NCBI GenBank assembly: GCA_030832085.1
Contig: JAURJU010000050.1
Location: 62,001 to 126,000, forward strand
Source of the DNA: Chitinophagales bacterium
GTDB lineage: Bacteria; Bacteroidota; Bacteroidia; Chitinophagales; Chitinophagaceae
DNA: 64,000 nucleotides
Direction of reading: 5' to 3'
In this document: positions 5,635 to 17,681 of the stretch, in pieces
Layout of the letters: every line of letters starts with the position of its first letter
Numbering within the stretch: the first letter of the stretch is position 1
Position numbers and translations under genes: made by a program
Notes under the pieces: model-generated
What the model was told of the DNA's origin: nothing
Databases searched by the model: none
Seen by the model: only the letters and a program-made list of their open reading frames with translations

Positions 5635-6878
5635 TGTACACCTCCCTCCTTTTGTACTGCAGGTTGAATTTCCCCTTCCAGTTTTTCAACATTTCTTGCT
5701 ACACTTAAAATGATTCCAATCGATAGACAGGTAAACAGAAAAGAACTTCCCCCCATGCTGACAAGCGGCAAGGTTACCCCTGTCACAGGAAACAGATTGA
5801 CATTTACCGCCATGTTGGCGAGGGCCTGTATGACCAGTGTAAACCCAAGGGCAAGCGAAAGAAATGCACCAAAGGCATAAGGACACTTTCGCATGATCCT
5901 GATGCACCTGTAAAGAAAAAGCAGGTAAATCAGCAACATGGCCGCACCGCCCATCAGTCCATATTCTTCAATGATGATGGCATAAATGAAGTCAGAATAA
6001 GGATGGGGCAAAAAGTTTCTCGCTTGACTGTTTCCAGGTCCCATGCCCACCCAACTGCCTTTTGCAATGGCAATCTTTGCCTGTTGCACCTGATAAGATG
6101 ATTCTTTCTTATCAGAATACATGAAATCCTGGGTCCGATTAATCCAGGTTTCGATACGCCCCTTCGTGAGCATTTTGGGCAAAGGATCAGATTTTCCAGT
6201 TTCCTCGTTATGGTAGATTTTTGCACAAGCAATCAACATGACAACAGGGATGGCCGCCAAAAGAACAACCAATCCAATATGCCTGACGCTGGCCCTTCCA
6301 ATGAACAGAAGAAAAATACTGGTTGCACCGGTCAGGAGTGCAGTAGAAAGATTGGCTGGCGCAATAAGTGCACAGATGAGCAAAACCGGCAGGATTACAG
6401 GAAGAAATCCCGCCTTGAACTCCTTGATGGTATCTTGTCTTTTGCTCAACTGTCTGCTCAAATACATGAACAATCCAAGTTTGGCAAGGTCTGATGTCTG
6501 AAAAGTAAGGTTGATGATGGGAAGCTTTATCCAACGGCTGGCATCGTTGAGGTTTGTACCAAAAAGCAAGGTGTACATCAGCAATGGTATTGAGACTATG
6601 AACAGGATTTGTGCAACTTTGGAGTAAATGGTATAATTCATCAAATGCGCAAAATATATGATGGCAACACCAGCTGCTATGAACATGATCTGTTTGAACA
6701 AATAGGACTCTGTGCTCTTTGACAGTTTGTATGCCAATGTACCTGTACTGCTGTAGACTGCAAGAAGGCTCATCATGGTGAGCAACACCACAATTGCCCA
6801 GATGACCTTGTCACCACGGGTTCTACTGGAAATGCTTCCCAGTGAGTATTGCTTTATATTGAGTCCTTCCTCTTGCAT
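5631..6878 (-). CDS. ftsW: SEDS-family peptidoglycan glycosyltransferase FtsW
   Basis: Polytopic membrane protein that polymerises lipid II into septal glycan strands together with FtsI. The 415-residue product has about ten transmembrane helices beginning at VIWAIVVLLTMMSLLAVYSS, a large periplasmic loop after GRASVRH, and the SEDS signatures HPYSDFIYAIIIEEYG near residue 290 and FPVTGVTLPLVSMGGSS near residue 360. ATG 6878 is chosen because the longer reading upstream overlaps the murD 3' end and adds residues unlike the family; this leaves an 11-base gap to murD. It is part of the continuous dcw operon. Confidence 0.95.
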   Translation of the reverse strand: MQEEGLNIKQYSLGSISSRTRGDKVIWAIVVLLTMMSLLAVYSSTGTLAYKLSKSTESYLFKQIMFIAAGVAIIYFAHLMNYTIYSKVAQILFIVSIPLLMYTLLFGTNLNDASRWIKLPIINLTFQTSDLAKLGLFMYLSRQLSKRQDTIKEFKAGFLPVILPVLLICALIAPANLSTALLTGATSIFLLFIGRASVRHIGLVVLLAAIPVVMLIACAKIYHNEETGKSDPLPKMLTKGRIETWINRTQDFMYSDKKESSYQVQQAKIAIAKGSWVGMGPGNSQARNFLPHPYSDFIYAIIIEEYGLMGGAAMLLIYLLFLYRCIRIMRKCPYAFGAFLSLALGFTLVIQALANMAVNVNLFPVTGVTLPLVSMGGSSFLFTCLSIGIILSVARNVEKLEGEIQPAVQKEGGVQ

Positions 6879-8247: not shown

Positions 8248-9519
8248 TTATCGCATTTTCAATGACATCACTGCAAATACCACGAAAAGCAAAGTGACAA
8301 TCCAGAATCGGACAGCGATTTTGCTTTCATGGTATCCTTTTTTTTGATAGTGGTGGTGCAATGGACTCATCAGGAAAATACGTTTGCCTTCACCATATTT
8401 TTTTCTAGTATACTTGAAATAACCTACCTGAATCACTACACTCATGTTTTCTATCAGAAAAACGGCACAGAAAAATGGAATCAACAATTCTTTTCTAACG
8501 ATGATGGCCAAGGCGGCAATGATGCCCCCGAGTGCAAGACTACCGGTGTCTCCCATGAATACTTGTGCTGGATACGCATTGTACCAAAGAAATCCAATAC
8601 AAGCACCAATCATGGCAGCGATGAATACTGAAACTTCACCCAAATTAGGGATGTACATGATGTTGAGGTAATCGGCAAAAATCAAGTTGCCACTGGCGTA
8701 GGCAAACAATGCCAGACAGGCACCAATCAACGCAGCAACACCAGTAGCCAATCCATCCAGACCGTCCGTTATGTTTGCACCATTGGAGACAGCTGTTACT
8801 ATGAAAATGATGACCAGCATGTAGACGATCCAACCATATTCACGCAAGGAAGCAGGGAGCAATTTTGCATAATTGAATTCATGGTCCTTGATGAAAGGAA
8901 TGGTCGTTACGGGTTCATTGGCCTTGACAAAATACCGAGAAACACCCTGGTATTTCACCTCAATCGCATTCGCAGGTTTTACCTTGCCTTTGTATTCCCG
9001 CATCACTTTCACATGATCATTGAAAAGTAGGGTGGCACTGATGATGATACCCAAGCCAACCTGCCCCAATACCTTGAACCATCCTGCAAGACCATCCTTA
9101 TCTCCTTTCTTGTATGGTGTCCCTTGCTTTTGTGCAATGCGTTTTGCACGGAGCTTCAAATAATCATCCACAAACCCAACAAGCCCTAACCAAATGGTGC
9201 TCAACAACAACAGTTTGATGTACACCTTGTCAAGGTTTGCAAACAAAAGTGTTGGTATCAATATTCCAAGCAAGATGATAAATCCTCCCATCGTAGGTGT
9301 TCCTTTCTTTTGCTCCTCTCCCTGAAGTCCAAGCTCCCTCACACTTTCACCCACCTGCATTTGCTGAAGAAACTGGATGATTTTCTTGCCATAAACCATT
9401 GTGATGAAAAGCGACAGCAAAACAGCCATCATCGCCCGAAATGTGATGAATTGAAAAAGTCCCATCCCCGGAAACCGAAGATGTTCACTTTGCAACCATT
9501 GGTAGAGTTGATAAATCAT
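8248..9519 (-). CDS. mraY: Phospho-MurNAc-pentapeptide translocase MraY (lipid I synthase)
   Basis: Integral membrane enzyme that transfers phospho-MurNAc-pentapeptide to undecaprenyl phosphate, making lipid I. The 423-residue protein carries KKGTPTMGGF near residue 71, the catalytic aspartate pair in GFVDDYLKLRAKR (near residues 118-119), NGANITDGLDGLA near residue 247, and the histidine motif MSPLHHHYQKKGYHE close to the C-terminus. It is about 60 residues longer than E. coli MraY; the extra segment (about residues 171-225) lies between two transmembrane helices. It lies 6 bases from murE and is cotranscribed with it. Confidence 0.97.
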   Translation of the reverse strand: MIYQLYQWLQSEHLRFPGMGLFQFITFRAMMAVLLSLFITMVYGKKIIQFLQQMQVGESVRELGLQGEEQKKGTPTMGGFIILLGILIPTLLFANLDKVYIKLLLLSTIWLGLVGFVDDYLKLRAKRIAQKQGTPYKKGDKDGLAGWFKVLGQVGLGIIISATLLFNDHVKVMREYKGKVKPANAIEVKYQGVSRYFVKANEPVTTIPFIKDHEFNYAKLLPASLREYGWIVYMLVIIFIVTAVSNGANITDGLDGLATGVAALIGACLALFAYASGNLIFADYLNIMYIPNLGEVSVFIAAMIGACIGFLWYNAYPAQVFMGDTGSLALGGIIAALAIIVRKELLIPFFCAVFLIENMSVVIQVGYFKYTRKKYGEGKRIFLMSPLHHHYQKKGYHESKIAVRFWIVTLLFVVFAVMSLKMR

Positions 9520-9525
9520 GCCGTT

Positions 9526-11001
9526 TTATTTGTCTAATTCATTGAAAGTCTTCACAAGAACATCCTTATCATCAAACGAAAACCGCTGCCCCTTGATTTC
9601 CTGGTACTTTTCATGACCCTTGCCAGCAACCAGTATGATGTCCTCTTCCCTTGCCATCATTACGGCGGTACGTATGGCCTCTTTCCTGTCTTCAATCACC
9701 AATACTTTTCGCAAGAGCAACGCGTCTACTCCCTCATGCATGTCGTTCAATATTGCCGATGGGTCTTCACTCCTGGGGTTGTCTGAGGTAAAGATGGCAC
9801 GGGTACTGAACTCAGCCGCTGCCGCTCCCATCAGCTTTCGTTTTGACTTGTCGCGATCACCACCACATCCCACAACAGTGATGATCTGTTCACCTCCTTT
9901 TTGGAATTTTTTTATGGTAGCGAGTACATTCAACAGTGCATCGGGGGTATGGGCATAATCCACAATGCCAATGATTCCCTGCTTTGGTGAAACCATATAA
10001 TCAAAGCGACCTTCTGCACCTGTAACGTTGCTCATGGCCTGGAGCACGTCCAGCCGGTCTTCACCCAAGCAGATTGCGGCTGCATATACGGCAAGTAAAT
10101 TGTAAGCATTGAACTCACCGATCAGCCTAAAATGCACTTCCTGCTCATTGATCAGCATTTGTAAACCATTGATGCTGTTATCGATGATCCTGCCTTTGAA
10201 GTCTGCAATGGACCGAAGACTATAATAAAACTTGTCGGCAGCAGTATTTTGCAACATGATGGCTCCATTTCTGTCGTCCATGTTGGATATTGCAAATGCT
10301 GATGAAGAAAGACCATCAAAAAAATTACGTTTTACCTTAATGTATGCGTCAAAAGTCTTGTGATAATCAAGGTGATCATGTGTGATGTTGGTGAATATTC
10401 CACCTGAAAATTCAAGCCCTGCAATTCGCTGCTGATGAATGGCGTGGCTGCTCACTTCCATAAATACATATTTGCAACCGGCATCCACCATGCGCTTCAG
10501 CAAAATATTCAGTGAAATCACATCCGGGGTTGTATGGGTGGATGGCAAAACCAATTCACCAATCATGTTGTTCACAGTGGATATCAGGCCACAGTTTGCA
10601 TCAAGTGAAGTAAACAATTTGTACAAAAGTGTTGCAACAGTTGTCTTGCCATTGGTTCCTGTTATGCCTACCAATTTCAGATGGTGGCTTGGTTCCCCAT
10701 AGAATGCATGTGCCATGATACCTGCAGCTTTTGCAGCATCATCTGTTTGAACATATTGTATACCGGGATGCAAAAGAGATGGGAGATTTTCACATACAAT
10801 GGCTACTGCACCATTTTCAATTGCGAGACCAATGTAATCATGTCCATCTTGGGATGTACCCTTCACGGCAATAAAACAACTGTTCTTTCCAACCAGCCTC
10901 GAGTCAATCTGCAGATCACTGATGAACACATCAGTTCTTCCTGCCAATGACCGGATCCTCACCTTGTATAATATGTCTTGCAACAATTGCATGCTCATCA
11001 T
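9526..11001 (-). CDS. murE: UDP-MurNAc-tripeptide synthetase MurE (meso-DAP type)
   Basis: Cytoplasmic ligase that adds the third residue to UDP-MurNAc-L-Ala-D-Glu. The 491-residue product has the N-terminal UDP-binding domain (SRLVGKNSCFIAVKG), the P-loop GITGTNGKTTVATLLYK near residue 113, and a C-terminal motif DNPRSEDP near residue 410. In characterised MurE enzymes the DNPR motif recognises meso-diaminopimelate, so a DAP-type peptidoglycan is inferred. Several ATGs occur in the first four codons (MMSM); ATG 11001 overlaps the ftsI stop by 4 bases and is taken as the start. murF, which often follows murE, is absent here. Confidence 0.96.
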   Translation of the reverse strand: MMSMQLLQDILYKVRIRSLAGRTDVFISDLQIDSRLVGKNSCFIAVKGTSQDGHDYIGLAIENGAVAIVCENLPSLLHPGIQYVQTDDAAKAAGIMAHAFYGEPSHHLKLVGITGTNGKTTVATLLYKLFTSLDANCGLISTVNNMIGELVLPSTHTTPDVISLNILLKRMVDAGCKYVFMEVSSHAIHQQRIAGLEFSGGIFTNITHDHLDYHKTFDAYIKVKRNFFDGLSSSAFAISNMDDRNGAIMLQNTAADKFYYSLRSIADFKGRIIDNSINGLQMLINEQEVHFRLIGEFNAYNLLAVYAAAICLGEDRLDVLQAMSNVTGAEGRFDYMVSPKQGIIGIVDYAHTPDALLNVLATIKKFQKGGEQIITVVGCGGDRDKSKRKLMGAAAAEFSTRAIFTSDNPRSEDPSAILNDMHEGVDALLLRKVLVIEDRKEAIRTAVMMAREEDIILVAGKGHEKYQEIKGQRFSFDDKDVLVKTFNELDK

Positions 11002-13136
11002 TCGGTTGTTTGACCAAGATTCAAATAAACGGTTTGCCCTTTTTGAACAACTGTACCGGCAGGGATGGATTGTGCAAGGACCTTGCCCTTTCCTGTAGCA
11101 ATCACCTGTAATTGCTGACGCTCCAGCAATTCCAAAGCATCCTTCAAGCCAAAGCCTTTCAGGTCAGGCATGTTCCCACGCTCTACACTCCAACTGCTTG
11201 ATGCCAATTTTTTTTCACTTGTGGTCACTTTGCTCCATTCTCCTTTGTTTCCAACACTGACCAACTGCTTTCCGATTCCTTTGGCGATGGTTTTGAAATC
11301 ATTGGAAGATCCAATCCACTCAGTCTTGCTGCTGTCTGCAAATTGTGGATGTCGATAGCTGGCATAGAGATCAGCATCGACCGTAAACAACTTGTTTGCG
11401 ATTTCAGTGAACACCGGGCCGGCAACAAGTGCACCATAATATTTCTGTGCAAATGGTTTGTTTTTGATCACCACAATACAGGAGTATTTGGGATTGTCGG
11501 CGGGAAAATATCCTGCAAAAGACGATTGGTAGATATGGTCAGTATACCCTTTGTTTCCATTCGCGACCTGCGCCGTTCCTGTTTTTCCTGCCAATGAATA
11601 GAATTGGTTCCGCATGCTCTTTGCAGTTCCCGCCAATACAACCCCCTCAAGACAGGATTTTACTTGCAACAAAGTGGATTTGCTGCAAATGGAGTCGCGA
11701 AGCACCGATGGTTTGAATTCCTGTATCGCCTTTCCATCTTTCATGATGGCATTGACCAAATAGGGTTTGAGCATTTTCCCATTGTTGGCAACAGCGTTAT
11801 ACACCATCAGCGTCTGCAAAGGACTTATTGAAATATTGTACCCAAAACTCATCCAGGGAAGGGTTACATTGCTCCAGTTTTTTCCGCTGGGGTTGGGTAT
11901 CATGGAAACAGATTCACCCAGCAATTCAATGCCAGAAGGCTTGTGAAGGTTCAACCTTTGAAGATGCGATATGAATTTTCTTGGATTTTTATTGTAGTGG
12001 TTTACTGCAAGTTTGGCCATTCCCACATTTGAACTCAACTCAAATGCCCGCTTGTAAGTAACCATGGTATGGGAGTGTCTTTCACTGTCCCAAACTGTTC
12101 TTCCGCCGAAATCCCACTTTCCACCTTCCAAATTGACCGGACTGTTCAAGTTGATGTATTGATCTTCAAGAGCAGCCAACATTGTAACCAGCTTAAATGT
12201 TGAACCGGGTTCAGAACGGGTGATGGCATAATTCATGTCTTCGGCATAGGAACCATCTTGCTGTCTTCCAAGATTTGCAATGGCCTTGATTTTACCAGTC
12301 TTGACTTCCATTACAATACAGGTACCATTCAAGCACTCATTGGACTGCATCATGTTCAAAAGCGCCTGCTCAGCAACATCTTGTATATTGATGTCGATTG
12401 TGGTGATGATATCCTTCCCATTTTCAGGCTCAATCTCAGATCCTTCAACCGGAACAAAAGCACCACCTGCAATTCTCCTTACCAAACGCTTGCCTGTAAC
12501 CCCCTTCAGCAGGCTATCATAGGTCTTTTCCAGCCCAACATTCTTGCTGATCAGTCTTCCCGTAGAATCCACATACTCGCGGGATAAGCCAATCGTCCTG
12601 TTGGCCAGCAAACCAAATGGTGCCATTCTTTTTTCCTTCTCGATAAAGATAAAACCGTTCTTGTTTCTGTTTGTCTTGATAAAGCTGATGTTTCTCAGCT
12701 GTTGATACTGTTTGAAATCAATATTTTTCTTCAACAGGTGATAACGGTCTTCACGGTTGAAGACGCCCAACAGTTCATGCTTGTAAGAGCCCGGTGTTCC
12801 ACCACCCAATATGTCAGAAAGCTGGATAGAAAGACTGTCCAATGCCTTTTTGAATTTAGCACCATTTTTTTCCTGTACACCTTCTGCTCCAAAATCGAGG
12901 TAAATGTCAAAAAACGGAATAGAGCTGCTCAGCATCCTGCCATCTTCACTGTAAATTGTTCCCCGCTCAGCGTCCATCTCGCGGTACTCAAGATGCAGGC
13001 TGTCGCTGAGCGACATCCAATAAGCACCTTCTGCACGCTGAATGAACAAGGCTTTACAGAATATACAAATGCCCAAGACAAGCATGAGCATGTACATCAG
13101 GTAACTGCGCCACAATATGTCTTTTTTTGTCTCCAA
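10998..13136 (-). CDS. ftsI: Septal penicillin-binding protein FtsI/PBP2x type with PASTA domain
   Basis: Class B penicillin-binding protein: DD-transpeptidase that crosslinks septal peptidoglycan and partners FtsW. The 712-residue protein has one N-terminal membrane anchor (about residues 13-32), a PBP dimerisation domain, the transpeptidase domain with SxxK (GSTFK, Ser312/Lys315), SSN (ELSSNVGMA) and KTGTA (Lys518), and a C-terminal PASTA domain from about residue 650. The start is TTG 13136: an in-frame TAG lies two codons upstream and the next ATG would remove the charged N-terminus. It begins 3 bases after the ftsL-like stop. Confidence 0.94.
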   Translation of the reverse strand: METKKDILWRSYLMYMLMLVLGICIFCKALFIQRAEGAYWMSLSDSLHLEYREMDAERGTIYSEDGRMLSSSIPFFDIYLDFGAEGVQEKNGAKFKKALDSLSIQLSDILGGGTPGSYKHELLGVFNREDRYHLLKKNIDFKQYQQLRNISFIKTNRNKNGFIFIEKEKRMAPFGLLANRTIGLSREYVDSTGRLISKNVGLEKTYDSLLKGVTGKRLVRRIAGGAFVPVEGSEIEPENGKDIITTIDINIQDVAEQALLNMMQSNECLNGTCIVMEVKTGKIKAIANLGRQQDGSYAEDMNYAITRSEPGSTFKLVTMLAALEDQYINLNSPVNLEGGKWDFGGRTVWDSERHSHTMVTYKRAFELSSNVGMAKLAVNHYNKNPRKFISHLQRLNLHKPSGIELLGESVSMIPNPSGKNWSNVTLPWMSFGYNISISPLQTLMVYNAVANNGKMLKPYLVNAIMKDGKAIQEFKPSVLRDSICSKSTLLQVKSCLEGVVLAGTAKSMRNQFYSLAGKTGTAQVANGNKGYTDHIYQSSFAGYFPADNPKYSCIVVIKNKPFAQKYYGALVAGPVFTEIANKLFTVDADLYASYRHPQFADSSKTEWIGSSNDFKTIAKGIGKQLVSVGNKGEWSKVTTSEKKLASSSWSVERGNMPDLKGFGLKDALELLERQQLQVIATGKGKVLAQSIPAGTVVQKGQTVYLNLGQTTE

Positions 13137-13139
13137 TTC

Positions 13140-13472
13140 CTACTTCGCTTTTGTCTGCGTTTTATTTGATGAATCAATCAGTGCTACAGGAGGCTCAAGA
13201 ATTTCCTTTATCCCAGAAACTGCAACCGATTTCACTACCTCAGATTGTTTTGTCATGAACATCCAATCCTTTCTTACCATCTTGAATTCATACTGCAAAT
13301 CCTTCAATTCTTTTGTCGTCCGGTTGATGTCCTTGATAGCCCTTTCAGCATGATGCCCGTTGTAGATATACGCCACGGCCAGTGCAGAGAGAAAAAGAAA
13401 AAATGGAACATTTTTCACCAACCATACCTGGTTGATAAAAAACCATTTGCCATCATTCTTTTTGACTTTCAT
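13140..13472 (-). CDS. FtsL-like divisome protein
   Basis: Small bitopic protein in the ftsL position of the dcw cluster. The 110-residue product has a basic cytoplasmic N-terminus (KVKKNDGKWFFINQ), one transmembrane helix (about residues 21-38, VPFFLFLSALAVAYIYNGH) and a predicted periplasmic coiled coil (RAIKDINRTTKELKDLQYEF) followed by a basic tail. This matches the FtsL-like family seen in Bacteroidota, which is expected to bridge FtsQ and FtsI/FtsW. Sequence conservation is weak, so topology and location carry the call. ATG 13472 is preferred over an upstream TTG at 13502 that would overlap rsmH. Confidence 0.82.
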   Translation of the reverse strand: MKVKKNDGKWFFINQVWLVKNVPFFLFLSALAVAYIYNGHHAERAIKDINRTTKELKDLQYEFKMVRKDWMFMTKQSEVVKSVAVSGIKEILEPPVALIDSSNKTQTKAK

Positions 13473-13485
13473 TCGACCCTGTTTT

Positions 13486-14430
13486 TTATTTTCTAATTCC
13501 AACCCTCAGCCTTGCACTTCTCGACCTTGGGTTGTTCCTGATTTCCTCTTCTGAAGGCTCAATCGGCTTTTTATTGAGTGGTTCGAAGGGAATGTCTTTT
13601 CTTGTACCATATACTGGATCAACCGCCCGCATGTCCTCATCTCCCGACTTGAAAAACTGCTTCACAATCCTATCCTCTATGCTATGAAAGGTAATCACCG
13701 CCATTCTGCCCCCCGGCCTGATCAGTGCTGCAGACTGAACCATCAGGTCCTTCAATGCTGCCAGTTCATCGTTTACTGCAATCCTCAGTGCCTGAAAAAC
13801 CTGGGCAAAATATTTTTTGGGATTTCCCTTTACCACCGGAGCCATCACGGCCTTCAATTCGTTGATGGTTCGGATTTGGCTCTTTTTACAGTGCTCACAA
13901 AGAAGCAAAGCCAGGGTCTTTGCATTTGTCACCTCACCATATTCCTGAAAAACCAGCTGAAGGGCTTCTGGAGAAGATTGTTGGAGGAAATCTGCTGCAG
14001 TCAATGCGCCAGATTGATCCATCCGCATGTCCAATGGTGCATCAAAGCGAATGGAGAAACCTCTCGATGCCTTGTTGAATTGGTGACTGCTGACGCCGAG
14101 ATCTGCCAAAATTCCATCAACTTCTGAAATGCCATGTAAACGAAGAAACCTGGCCAAGTGACGAAAATTGTGGGGGATGAAAACCAGGCGAGCATCTTCG
14201 ACCAGGTTGGCTTTTGCATCCTCATCTTGATCAAAGGCAAACAACCGACCTGAGGCATTGAGCCTAGAGAGAATTTCCAACGAATGTCCACCACCCCCAT
14301 ACGTACAATCAACATATGTTCCGGAAGGATTGATGTTCAGGCCATCAACCGCCTCCTTCAGCATGACAGGGATGTGATAGGCTTGTACCGCATGTTCAGC
14401 CACCTCATCCATGTTATGCGTTTCATTCAT
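13486..14430 (-). CDS. rsmH: 16S rRNA m4C1402 methyltransferase RsmH (MraW)
   Basis: SAM-dependent methyltransferase that modifies N4 of C1402 in the 16S rRNA decoding centre. The 314-residue protein has HIPVMLKEAVDGL near residue 19, the SAM-binding motif YVDCTYGGGGHSLEIL near residue 38, GILADLGVSSHQFN near residue 106, and the C-terminal VITFHSIEDRIVK and NPRSRSARLRV motifs, all diagnostic of MraW. It is the second gene of the dcw operon, 16 bases after mraZ, which is its near-universal position. Confidence 0.97.
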   Translation of the reverse strand: MNETHNMDEVAEHAVQAYHIPVMLKEAVDGLNINPSGTYVDCTYGGGGHSLEILSRLNASGRLFAFDQDEDAKANLVEDARLVFIPHNFRHLARFLRLHGISEVDGILADLGVSSHQFNKASRGFSIRFDAPLDMRMDQSGALTAADFLQQSSPEALQLVFQEYGEVTNAKTLALLLCEHCKKSQIRTINELKAVMAPVVKGNPKKYFAQVFQALRIAVNDELAALKDLMVQSAALIRPGGRMAVITFHSIEDRIVKQFFKSGDEDMRAVDPVYGTRKDIPFEPLNKKPIEPSEEEIRNNPRSRSARLRVGIRK

Positions 14431-14446
14431 GATTATACTCCTTTTT

Positions 14447-14905
14447 TCACGGTTGAACTTTCCTTGCCATCACTTCAGCAGCCAGGCCACTGAAGGACTC
14501 GGGAGAAAAATTGTCAAAGAACTGCTGATATTTGTTTTTATCCCATATCTCCAACTTGTTCATTGCCGAAACCAACACAATGTCTTTTTCAAGACCAGCA
14601 TGCTCCATCAGGCTTTTCGGCAACAACATTCTTCCAGCACTGTCCAGCTCAATCTGTGTGGCCCCATTTAAAAAATAACGCCTGAACTCACGGACCTTGG
14701 GATCAAAATCATTGAGCGCACTGATGTTCTCGTAAATCGGCTTCCAACTCTGCATTGGATAAACGGTAAGGCATTTCTCAAAGCCCCTGTTGATAACAAA
14801 CACAGGTTCTTCGGCTTCCGGCAGCTGTTTTTTTATGCCTGCCGGCAGAAGAAACCTACCTTTGCTATCGAGGGTAGCCTCATATTCGCCTATGAATCCG
14901 ACCAT
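14447..14905 (-). CDS. mraZ: Transcriptional regulator MraZ
   Basis: DNA-binding regulator of the dcw operon, built from two AbrB/SpoVT-like MraZ half-domains. The 152-residue protein starts MVGFIGEYEATLDSKGRF and has the paired motifs LDSKGRFLLPAGI (first repeat) and LDSAGRMLLPKSLMEHA (second repeat, near residue 88). MraZ oligomers bind short direct repeats in the promoter of their own operon; such repeats are present directly upstream at 14937-14976. It is the first gene of the operon, so it probably autoregulates the whole division and wall cluster. Confidence 0.96.
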   Translation of the reverse strand: MVGFIGEYEATLDSKGRFLLPAGIKKQLPEAEEPVFVINRGFEKCLTVYPMQSWKPIYENISALNDFDPKVREFRRYFLNGATQIELDSAGRMLLPKSLMEHAGLEKDIVLVSAMNKLEIWDKNKYQQFFDNFSPESFSGLAAEVMARKVQP

Positions 14906-14936
14906 TTACGCTGTTTTAGAAGAAAAATAACATTTA

Positions 14937-14976
14937 ATGACACAAATTAACACAATTTCCCACTTTCAAACACTGA
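14937..14976 (-). promoter_or_regulatory. MraZ-type operator: four GTG boxes at exact 10-bp spacing
   Basis: Read on the minus strand (the mraZ sense strand), GTG followed by G or T occurs four times in exact 10-base register: TCAGTGTTTG, AAAGTGGGAA, ATTGTGTTAA and TTTGTGTCAT. The second copy fits the published MraZ box AAAGTG(G/T)NNN perfectly. The array ends 31 bases before the mraZ ATG. A -7-like TTAATTTG (14943-14950) and an upstream TTTG (14967-14970) fall inside the array, so MraZ binding would block the promoter. Operator function is inferred from family knowledge. Confidence 0.75.
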
Positions 14977-14991
14977 TTTGAGATGCTATAT

Positions 14992-15101
14992 TTATGCACA
15001 GCCAAAAGCCAATACAGCAAAGGCTTTCAGGTGTTTTTACCCCTTACGCTGTGGATAGCCCCAAGATAGATGTGGATTACCTGTGAATTACATGTGAATA
15101 A
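14992..15101. other. Cluster of five DnaA-box-like 9-mers (candidate oriC or DnaA-regulated site)
   Basis: Five 9-mers with at most one mismatch to TTATNCACA lie in 110 bases: TTATGCACA (14992-15000, plus strand), and on the opposite strand CTATCCACA (15050-15058), TAATCCACA (15071-15079), TAATTCACA (15082-15090) and TTATTCACA (15093-15101). The last three share orientation and are spaced exactly 11 bases apart, about one helical turn. An AT-rich segment (14930-14995) flanks them. The cluster abuts the queA ATG. An origin, or DnaA control of queA or mraZ, is inferred and untested. Confidence 0.5.
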
Positions 15102-16337
15102 ATGAAAAAAGCAACCCCAATCCCCCATATCGAAATGGCAGCTTTCCAGTATGACCTGCCAAGTGACCGAATTGCAATGGCACCTGAAGCAGAAAGGGAT
15201 GCATCCCGGTTGTTGTTGAGAAAAAACAATGAACTGGTGCATGAATGGTATAAGAATCTTCCCAAACTTCTTCCAGCAAATGCACATTTGGTGTTCAACA
15301 ACACCAGGGTCATTGCAGCAAGAATGAAGTTCAGGAAATCAACTGGCGGGGAGATTGAAATCTTTCTCCTTGAACCTGCAGATGGCAACTATGCTTGTCT
15401 TCACCACACTGAAAGCACCACTTGGAAATGTCTTGTCGGGGGTGCTAAAAAATGGAAGAACAGTGAAATACTGAACACTGTTCTGGATCAGGAAAATAAT
15501 ATGTTGTATGCCAAATGCGTTGGAAAACAAGACGATTCATTCCTGATCAATTTTTCCTGGAACAGTGAAAAGAATTTTGAATCCATCATTTCAACTGCCG
15601 GAATGATTCCACTTCCGCCCTACATCAAAAGAGAGGCAAATGCAGAAGACAAAGAAAGATACCAAACGGTATTTGCAGCACTGGAAGGATCAGTTGCAGC
15701 ACCCACGGCAGGACTTCATTTTACAGAAAGCCTGATCAATGCGCTGTCGGAACAAAAGATTTCACATGGATTCGTGACCCTTCATGTAGGTGCAGGAACA
15801 TTCAAACCCGTGACAGCTGCAGTCATCAGCGACCACAGCATGCATGAAGAATTTTTCCAGGCAGACATTGGCTTGATCAGCCAATTGGCAGATGCAGAAA
15901 AAAAGATAATTGTTGTGGGAACAACATCGCTGAGGACATTGGAAAGCCTTTACTGGATTGCCGTAAAAGCCATGGAAAATGAGCACCATGATCTTTCATC
16001 CCATCAACACATTGGACAATGGGAGCACCTTGACATGTACAAGGAAAAGCTGCCCTCCAGGCACATCGCTTTCAATGCCCTCAAAGAAAAAATGTTGGTA
16101 AAAAACATTTCAATGGTACAGGGCTATACCGGAATATGCATTGCTCCGGGCTATTCCTTCAAAGTGGCGACGGCCCTGATTACCAATTTTCACCAACCCC
16201 AATCCACATTGTTGCTGATCATTGCAGCCATCATGGGTGATGAATGGAGAAGCATGTATGCGGCAGCACTGGAGGAGGGATACAGGTTTTTGAGCTATGG
16301 GGATGGATCACTGCTTTTCATCGAAGAAACAGCGTGA
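15102..16337 (+). CDS. queA: tRNA preQ1(34) S-adenosylmethionine ribosyltransferase-isomerase QueA
   Basis: Cytoplasmic enzyme of queuosine synthesis that transfers the ribosyl part of SAM onto preQ1 at the tRNA wobble position, giving epoxyqueuosine. The 411-residue protein shows FQYDLPSDRIAMAPEAERDASRLL at the N-terminus (here cited as DLPSDRIA), HLVFNNTRVIAARM near residue 65, the core motif TAGLHFTESLINAL near residue 206, HVGAGTFKPV near residue 228, and TNFHQPQSTLLLI near residue 362. A downstream Met12 is an alternative start. Its 3' end touches the stop of the convergent histidine kinase gene with no bases between. Confidence 0.96.
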   Translation: MKKATPIPHIEMAAFQYDLPSDRIAMAPEAERDASRLLLRKNNELVHEWYKNLPKLLPANAHLVFNNTRVIAARMKFRKSTGGEIEIFLLEPADGNYACLHHTESTTWKCLVGGAKKWKNSEILNTVLDQENNMLYAKCVGKQDDSFLINFSWNSEKNFESIISTAGMIPLPPYIKREANAEDKERYQTVFAALEGSVAAPTAGLHFTESLINALSEQKISHGFVTLHVGAGTFKPVTAAVISDHSMHEEFFQADIGLISQLADAEKKIIVVGTTSLRTLESLYWIAVKAMENEHHDLSSHQHIGQWEHLDMYKEKLPSRHIAFNALKEKMLVKNISMVQGYTGICIAPGYSFKVATALITNFHQPQSTLLLIIAAIMGDEWRSMYAAALEEGYRFLSYGDGSLLFIEETA

Positions 16338-17681
16338 TCAACACAAGGGCAAAGTAACGGTGAACGTACTTCCCCTACCTGGTTCACTTTGAACAGCAAT
16401 GGTGCCATCATGTGCTTCCACCATCTTTCGCGTGTAATTGAGGCCAAGCCCAAAACCCTTTACATTGTGGATGTTACCTGAATGTGCACGGTAAAATTTA
16501 TCAAAAATACGAGACACTGTTTCCCTGCTCATTCCAATGCCATTGTCCTCGACAGTTAATACAATGGTATTCTTCTGGTTTTTGGTGGTAATGGTGATGA
16601 TGGGGGCTACATCTTCTTTTGCATATTTCAAGGCATTATCAATGAGGTTGCTGATCATGTTCACAAAATGTACCGGATGGCCCATCACCTTGTCATTTTC
16701 AGCATGCAGTGCATATGCAACTGTAGCATTTTTTTCTGCCACTTGCAAGGCAAACTTGTCTTCCAATTTGTGCAGCACTTCATGAAGATGGAGCATTTGT
16801 TTGTCTTTCAATACCTGGTTGATGTCCAATTGTGCAGCCTGCAAAATCTGTTCTACCTGAACATTCATTCTGTTGTTTTCGGCTTTGATGATCTGACCGA
16901 TAGAAAGCAACTGCTCGCGGTTGCCAATTATTTTTTCATTTTTCAGGGTATCAACAGCAATGGCAATGGTTGCAAGGGGTGTACGCAATTCGTGTGTCAT
17001 GTTGTTGATGAAATCCGTCTTCATCTCACTCAGCTTTTTTTGCGTCAGAATGGTCCTGACCGTTACATAAAATGCAGCAATGATGATGAGCGTGAAAAGA
17101 AGCGCGGCAAGTATGACCCAACCCACGGAACGCAGCACAAAATCCTGCATTCCATAAGTAATGAGAATCAGGGTTTCATCAGGCAAAAAAACCATTTCCT
17201 GCTCTCCAGACAAGTTTACCAATGGCCAACTGTGGATAGAATAGTTGGTTGTATCTTTTGTACCGATATCATACAACTTCATGTAATCAGGTGTCTGCAG
17301 GTCTGGCCCACTGCCGTTGACATTGGACAATACTGCAAACTGAAAATGAGCCCCTTTCAATCCATTGGATTCAAATGATTTTTCAATTATTTTCCTGATT
17401 TCTTCAACCGTAAACCGTTCTGCCAGGGTTTGTGGATGAAGCATTTTCAGCAACTGTTCCTGGTTTTCCTTTGGCAAAGCTTCAATGGGCAATGCCGGTG
17501 CCATGCGCATTTTTTCTTCTACCAATGATTCTACTACCTCGTACTCCACTTCCTGGACCTTGAACCTTACCTGTTCCTTGCGGATGGCCACAACATTTTT
17601 CAACCAGGAATATTGTATGACAATGATTCCTACCAGTGAAATGGTGATGAGTACTGTGATAAGGGTAAATATGCGCTTCAT
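16338..17681 (-). CDS. Sensor histidine kinase (orphan, RprX-like)
   Basis: Membrane-bound two-component sensor kinase of 447 residues. An N-terminal helix (about 4-22) and a second one (about 184-206, VGWVILAALLFTLIIIAAFY) enclose a periplasmic sensing region of about 160 residues without a recognised domain. The kinase core has the H box MTHELRTPLATIA (His230), N box NLIDNALKYA, G1 DNGIGMS and G2 GFGLGLNYT. No response regulator is adjacent; the RprY-type regulator at 39708 is a plausible partner. ATG 17681 is chosen because a -7 box lies just upstream and MKRIF begins the first helix. Confidence 0.9.
   Translation of the reverse strand: MKRIFTLITVLITISLVGIIVIQYSWLKNVVAIRKEQVRFKVQEVEYEVVESLVEEKMRMAPALPIEALPKENQEQLLKMLHPQTLAERFTVEEIRKIIEKSFESNGLKGAHFQFAVLSNVNGSGPDLQTPDYMKLYDIGTKDTTNYSIHSWPLVNLSGEQEMVFLPDETLILITYGMQDFVLRSVGWVILAALLFTLIIIAAFYVTVRTILTQKKLSEMKTDFINNMTHELRTPLATIAIAVDTLKNEKIIGNREQLLSIGQIIKAENNRMNVQVEQILQAAQLDINQVLKDKQMLHLHEVLHKLEDKFALQVAEKNATVAYALHAENDKVMGHPVHFVNMISNLIDNALKYAKEDVAPIITITTKNQKNTIVLTVEDNGIGMSRETVSRIFDKFYRAHSGNIHNVKGFGLGLNYTRKMVEAHDGTIAVQSEPGRGSTFTVTLPLC

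Follow-up and report, generated by a model that had tools for sequence, protein, structure and literature searches.

In Caulobacter crescentus, the promoters of ftsZ, mipZ, gcrA, and hdaA are described as activated by DnaA, with one to six DnaA boxes each (PMC3193534). DnaA is also reported to bind the promoter region of ftsL in Bacillus subtilis, and three DnaA boxes are present in ftsQA of E. coli (PMC10532879). According to the same report, no effect of these E. coli boxes on ftsZ was found under the conditions tested, and this is counted here against a promoter role of the boxes analyzed below. The oriC of E. coli combines strong boxes with oppositely oriented arrays of weak ones, which the strong boxes flank and nucleate (PMC4285127). 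The R-box consensus of E. coli is given as TTWTNCACA (PMC4585315). Searches of one open-access library, judged mostly from their listings, revealed no description of DnaA boxes at mraZ for Bacteroidota.

The window, that is, the whole stretch of 64,000 nucleotides that was analyzed, is a part of contig C22 (405,785 bases) in a draft genome of 2.89 Mb in 111 contigs. On its minus strand, mraZ (14447..14905; Pfam MraZ, 3.2e-35) encodes a MraZ-family regulator and is the first gene of the dcw operon. The operon continues on the same strand with mraW/rsmH (13486..14430; Pfam Methyltransf_5), an ftsL-like gene (13140..13502; Pfam FtsL_2), a transpeptidase gene for a PBP with a PASTA domain (10998..13136; Pfam Transpeptidase, PBP_dimer, and PASTA), a Mur ligase gene (9526..11001; Pfam Mur_ligase domains), and a gene for a family 4 glycosyl transferase, which is mraY-like by its position (8248..9519; Pfam Glycos_transf_4). 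The divergent neighbor on the plus strand is queA (15102..16337; Pfam Queuosine_synth, 1.4e-95), with its ATG at 15102.

Between mraZ and queA, an AT-rich stretch (14906-14991, GC 0.28) coincides with the mraZ operator region. It includes a block of approximately 10-bp repeats on the minus strand, ACACAAATTAACACAATTTCCCACTTT (14940..14966), whose consensus over the 86 loci described below is aCACAAAaTAACAC.ttTTCCCACTTT. This block is regarded as a putative MraZ operator by comparison with the AAAGTG[T/G] repeats presented in PMC8475190. A pattern scan recognized five DnaA-box-like 9-mers at 14992-15101, each with at most one mismatch to TTATNCACA. The first, TTATGCACA (14992..15000, plus strand), is an exact match located 28 bp beyond the operator-like block, and is designated here as the R-box. 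After a spacer of 49 bp (15001..15049), a length among the common ones in the locus set, an array of four boxes follows on the minus strand, inverted relative to the R-box. The array consists of CTATCCACA (15050..15058), TAATCCACA (15071..15079, 21 bp from the preceding box), and TAATTCACA (15082..15090), with one mismatch each, and TTATTCACA (15093..15101), which is exact and abuts the start of queA; its last three boxes are placed at exact steps of 11 bp. The first-pass annotation had pointed out the five clustered boxes with three at 11 bp, the AT-rich stretch flanking them, and a lone copy at 17231, and all of these were found again.

Taken singly, box matches are not enriched: the window has 50, and shuffled sequences have 67 on average. 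Their clustering is unusual: when 67 matches were scattered randomly over 64 kb, five boxes fell into such a span in a fraction of 0.0002 of 20,000 trials. The DnaA protein of this genome contains GGRDHTTV near its C-terminus, presumably the box-reading motif of DnaA, and ordinary box reading is expected. A box grammar like that of oriC beside a promoter suggests a DnaA oligomer upstream of the MraZ operator that would adjust dcw transcription. The preferred reading is a DnaA nucleoprotein site that is adjacent to the MraZ operator and acts on the dcw promoter, with a probability of roughly 0.6.

Conservation was analyzed with 86 distinct upstream regions of mraZ, 74 from a search for MraZ in named genomes and 12 from earlier genome searches. 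The former was limited to the best 80 of 387 records. Among these 80, 53 are titled Chitinophagaceae or its genera, with the placement of three genera looked up, and the remaining 27 carry wider titles (Chitinophagales, Sphingobacteriales, Bacteroidetes, uncultured); one metagenome-assembled genome among the 80 is titled Streptomyces griseus. Loci with less than 250 bp upstream and copies identical over 150 bp were left out before counting, as were two loci without the operator pattern (L254 and L308), while near-identical copies were retained.

The R-box is conserved. When the best match to TTWTNCACA was taken 5-60 bp beyond the operator, it was exact in 81 of the 86 loci, with one mismatch in four and two mismatches in one. 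In 79 of the 85 loci with at most one mismatch, the R-box starts exactly 28 bp past the operator. Reading the sequence at this fixed place, with no choice of the best match, gives an exact TTWTNCACA in 77/86. Boxes of the R-box consensus are situated near the gene start, as would be expected for a DnaA-controlled division promoter, and mostly at one distance. Variability is the highest at position 3 (A/T), followed by position 5, which is slightly above position 9, and this pattern matches the R-box consensus of E. coli as given in PMC4585315. The base preceding the R-box (14991 in the window) is T in 86/86 loci, which extends the conserved motif to ten bases.

The inverted array is conserved as well. 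Over 85 loci, the 130 bp beyond the R-box contain a mean of 2.78 inverted boxes, compared with 0.22 in mononucleotide shuffles and 0.29 in the opposite orientation. Chains of at least two inverted boxes at steps of 10-12 bp are present in 68/85 loci (0.2% of shuffles), and chains of at least three in 32/85 (no shuffle); the loci are related and hence not independent, so these shuffle comparisons and the phase test below overstate significance. A two-box chain is absent from 17/85 loci, which is counted against the promoter-site reading. The spacings of array pairs are 10 (51 pairs), 11 (55), 12 (1), 20-22 (72), and 31-32 bp (35), with eight others in total at 27, 30, 33, 34, or 38 bp. The array also keeps its helical phase to the R-box: for boxes 40-100 bp beyond the R-box in a set of 80 loci, R was 0.58 at a period of 10.5 bp, and the maximum of 5000 null sets was 0.33.

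Such periodic repeats beside a MraZ operator could be auxiliary MraZ operators, and not DnaA boxes. In Mollicutes, the MraZ sites are described as direct repeats built around a GTG core (PMC8475190), and the array boxes also carry GTG at steps of 10-11 bp. Against this, the array shares the ATNCACA core of the R-box, with positions 1 and 2 relaxed, in boxes that were themselves selected by match. The adjoining operator repeats differ from the array in their 3' part and run in the opposite orientation. Auxiliary operators are considered improbable.

Of 19 loci that represent further families of this order, 6 have an exact R-box at most 28 bp from the final operator-like repeat, and 2 have a two-box chain. 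Judging from this difference, the R-box seems to predate the array. The spacer between the R-box and the array was inspected for a conserved hairpin, which was rejected since the structure was inconsistent with a mean fold z of -0.70 over the 85 loci; a few spacers fold strongly (L243, z -3.9), and most do not. A search against Rfam returned a single sub-threshold match, located inside mraZ.

The position of the last box, directly at the queA start in the window, would make a regulation of queA only conceivable. Chains of at least two boxes are, however, present in 39/45 loci that lack a queA match and in 29/40 that have one. When the former are restricted to loci with at least 1.4 kb upstream of mraZ, chains are found in 37/42. 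Control of queA only is largely refuted by these counts and is hardly credible. Since chains are present with or without queA, the module follows mraZ; as far as the sequences indicate, it belongs to mraZ and the dcw operon, and queA is no constant partner. The boxes stay with the presumed regulated gene, as would be expected at a DnaA-controlled division promoter, within a sample in which all 86 loci were reached via mraZ.

Genome-wide screening was performed on a set of 41 genomes, a "same genus" grouping that is seemingly broad. A search for the triple 11-bp array, allowing two mismatches, gave one copy in each of 11/41 genomes, and every copy is located just upstream of mraZ; a control with the reversed pattern yielded 0 matches. 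At this threshold the triple array is absent from 30/41 genomes, which is counted against the promoter-site reading. Two exact boxes within 25 bp were found 12 times in 9/41 genomes, with 1 match in the control. Because 8 of these 12 matches are elsewhere and 4 at mraZ, pairs of DnaA boxes are not confined to mraZ. In the genome of the window, the one-mismatch match to the two-box pattern and one of the two two-mismatch matches fall at this site, and the 20 three-mismatch matches elsewhere are at about the control level. Among nine named genomes, triple-array matches with up to three mismatches were seen in 5/9. By their coordinates, the three two-mismatch matches are all at mraZ, two overlapping ones in Ginsengibacter and one in Pinibacter. 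Six three-mismatch matches are away from mraZ, and the controls gave three. No triple array was found at mraZ in 7/9 of the named genomes, another count against the promoter-site reading.

Several other clusters were recognized in this survey. In G017 (contig C35, ~6281-6367; L226), five boxes with offsets 0, 11, 44, 66, and 77 lie ~1.1 kb upstream of a uracil-DNA glycosylase gene (Pfam UDG), with a 182-aa ORF between. In G007 (C4:215032-215060; L227), two boxes lie ~190 bp upstream of a uracil-DNA glycosylase gene (Pfam UDG). These are perhaps another place controlled by DnaA. In G020 (C49; L228, ~9988-10030), three same-strand boxes, two of them exact, sit between the genes for DnaB helicase and the phenylalanyl-tRNA synthetase beta subunit. 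In 13 dnaA loci (12 of ~3.5 kb and one of 11 kb; L058 and L157-L168), there were never more than two box matches per 150 bp, and one exact box was present in 2/13. Box-based autoregulation of dnaA is not evident in these 13 loci.

The first-pass annotation had considered the site as a possible chromosome origin and had proposed GC skew as a check. Box clusters were ranked on contig stretches of 173-406 kb from six genomes. The mraZ gap comes first in five of them and is tied for first in the sixth (G006); some of the one-mismatch matches counted in this ranking lie in or by the MraZ operator. Such a DnaA-box cluster is a feature of oriC, and the R-box with its inverted array and AT-rich flank resembles half an origin. 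As a candidate DNA unwinding element, however, this flank (GC 0.28) is the same stretch as the mraZ operator region. The skew does not agree with this identification. With the mraZ set on the minus strand, an origin at the site would require positive skew on its right side. Both whole-gene and fourfold-site skew were regressed on strand because the fourfold-site skew depends strongly on gene strand. The whole-gene GC skew after this gene-strand correction is negative on both sides in 6/6 genomes, and the sign is unchanged at the site. On the right side it is -0.027, -0.036, -0.009, -0.029, -0.025, and -0.031, and all six values differ from zero by two standard errors or more; on the left side it is within two standard errors of zero in 3/6 (G019 with 14 genes, G024, and G006). 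The fourfold-site skew is negative on the right side in 6/6 and on the left side in 4/6, the left sides of G019 and G006 being slightly positive, within about one standard error. On the mraZ contig of G015, which runs in reverse, the skew is positive in 19/19 windows for whole-gene GC and in 16/19 for fourfold sites.

Nearness to dnaA, which is usual and not universal for oriC, is not seen either: five of the six drafts have dnaA on a different contig from mraZ, and in the sixth (G006) the two are 47 kb apart. The module is probably not a replication origin, and the chance that the site is oriC is judged to be small. The earlier proposal of a chromosome origin is not supported, given the unchanged skew sign.

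The survey of skew and box clusters in these draft genomes did not locate the true origin. At ~463-500 kb of contig C1 in G015 (L199 and L221), a weak skew change from negative to positive was observed, and the skew is negative again beyond ~527 kb. No strong box cluster was found in this region, the best being three boxes within 183 bp. Its neighbors include gldD, a gene for a MutY-like glycosylase, and an RNase E/G gene. The boxes by ung, which form exact pairs in G017 and G007, were considered as the true origin and set aside. In G015, ung is on contig C4, where the three sampled windows show one sign. The ung gene was found in 8/11 genomes searched, and not in G000.

The remaining alternative, and the main rival to the promoter-site reading, is a DnaA sink or reset locus beside mraZ, which would act on replication timing instead of dcw transcription. 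The models for it are datA, DARS, and the DnaA-box clusters of Bacillus and Streptomyces. The module has several boxes remote from dnaA and from any skew switch, as datA and DARS have several boxes outside oriC, "outside oriC" being judged here from skew. DnaA-box clusters are mentioned for several bacteria in PMC4585315. The number and distance of the boxes vary between the loci of the present set, and such variation would suit a sink as well. A free-standing sink needs no fixed distance to an operator, and the constant 28 bp between the R-box and the operator in 79/85 loci argues against it. Because this distance is fixed, the promoter role is favored, and a sink is considered unlikely.

Under the promoter-site reading, DnaA would be nucleated at the strong R-box, which lies 28 bp from the MraZ operator on its far side from mraZ. 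The weaker inverted boxes, mostly two or three per chain and located ~50-85 bp further upstream in a shared helical phase, would let DnaA oligomerize or loop. The resulting complex would alter transcription from the putative dcw promoter with the level or ATP state of DnaA. Genes for division and the wall would thereby track the replication cycle, beside the autoregulation by MraZ. The layout of the cluster recurs in many relatives and may tie division to replication. The other proposal in the first-pass annotation, a DnaA control site through which replication may be coupled to the operon for division and the wall, is supported by the comparison, in which the module stays with mraZ in many relatives at a conserved position, orientation, and phase; the coupling itself is putative. 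A wider version is tentative and has somewhat less than an even chance. In it, the whole dcw operon would be gated across Chitinophagaceae by MraZ and an orisome-like DnaA complex, which is nucleated at the fixed R-box and extends along the phased array. If true, initiator activity would be hard-wired to division and to the synthesis of the wall. PMC10532879 calls it an open question whether division is triggered by DnaA directly, and also which function the boxes in the dcw cluster of E. coli have. A box module locked to the dcw promoter, with naturally varying box number and distance, would make this question testable in culturable species.

DnaA boxes at the promoters of division genes are already known, and the placement at mraZ and the head of the dcw operon with a phased array is what differs here. 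C. crescentus likewise has DnaA boxes at the promoters of division and cell-cycle genes (PMC3193534). The boxes described there are at ftsZ and mipZ, whereas the present ones, analyzed at the sequence level, are at the head of the dcw operon with a MraZ-operator-like block and a phased inverted array. In B. subtilis ftsL and E. coli ftsQA, DnaA binding or boxes are likewise found in or near division genes (PMC10532879). These sites are not at mraZ, and their family-wide conservation is not described in the relevant parts of that report. The module resembles E. coli oriC in combining a strong box with an adjacent array of weaker ones (PMC4285127); unlike oriC, the module shows no skew inversion, dnaA is not adjacent, and its position is tied to the MraZ operator. 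As with datA, DARS1, DARS2, and the DnaA-box clusters described in PMC4585315, conserved boxes are present outside oriC, but the module at mraZ, unlike these, keeps a fixed distance to the operator of a putative promoter.
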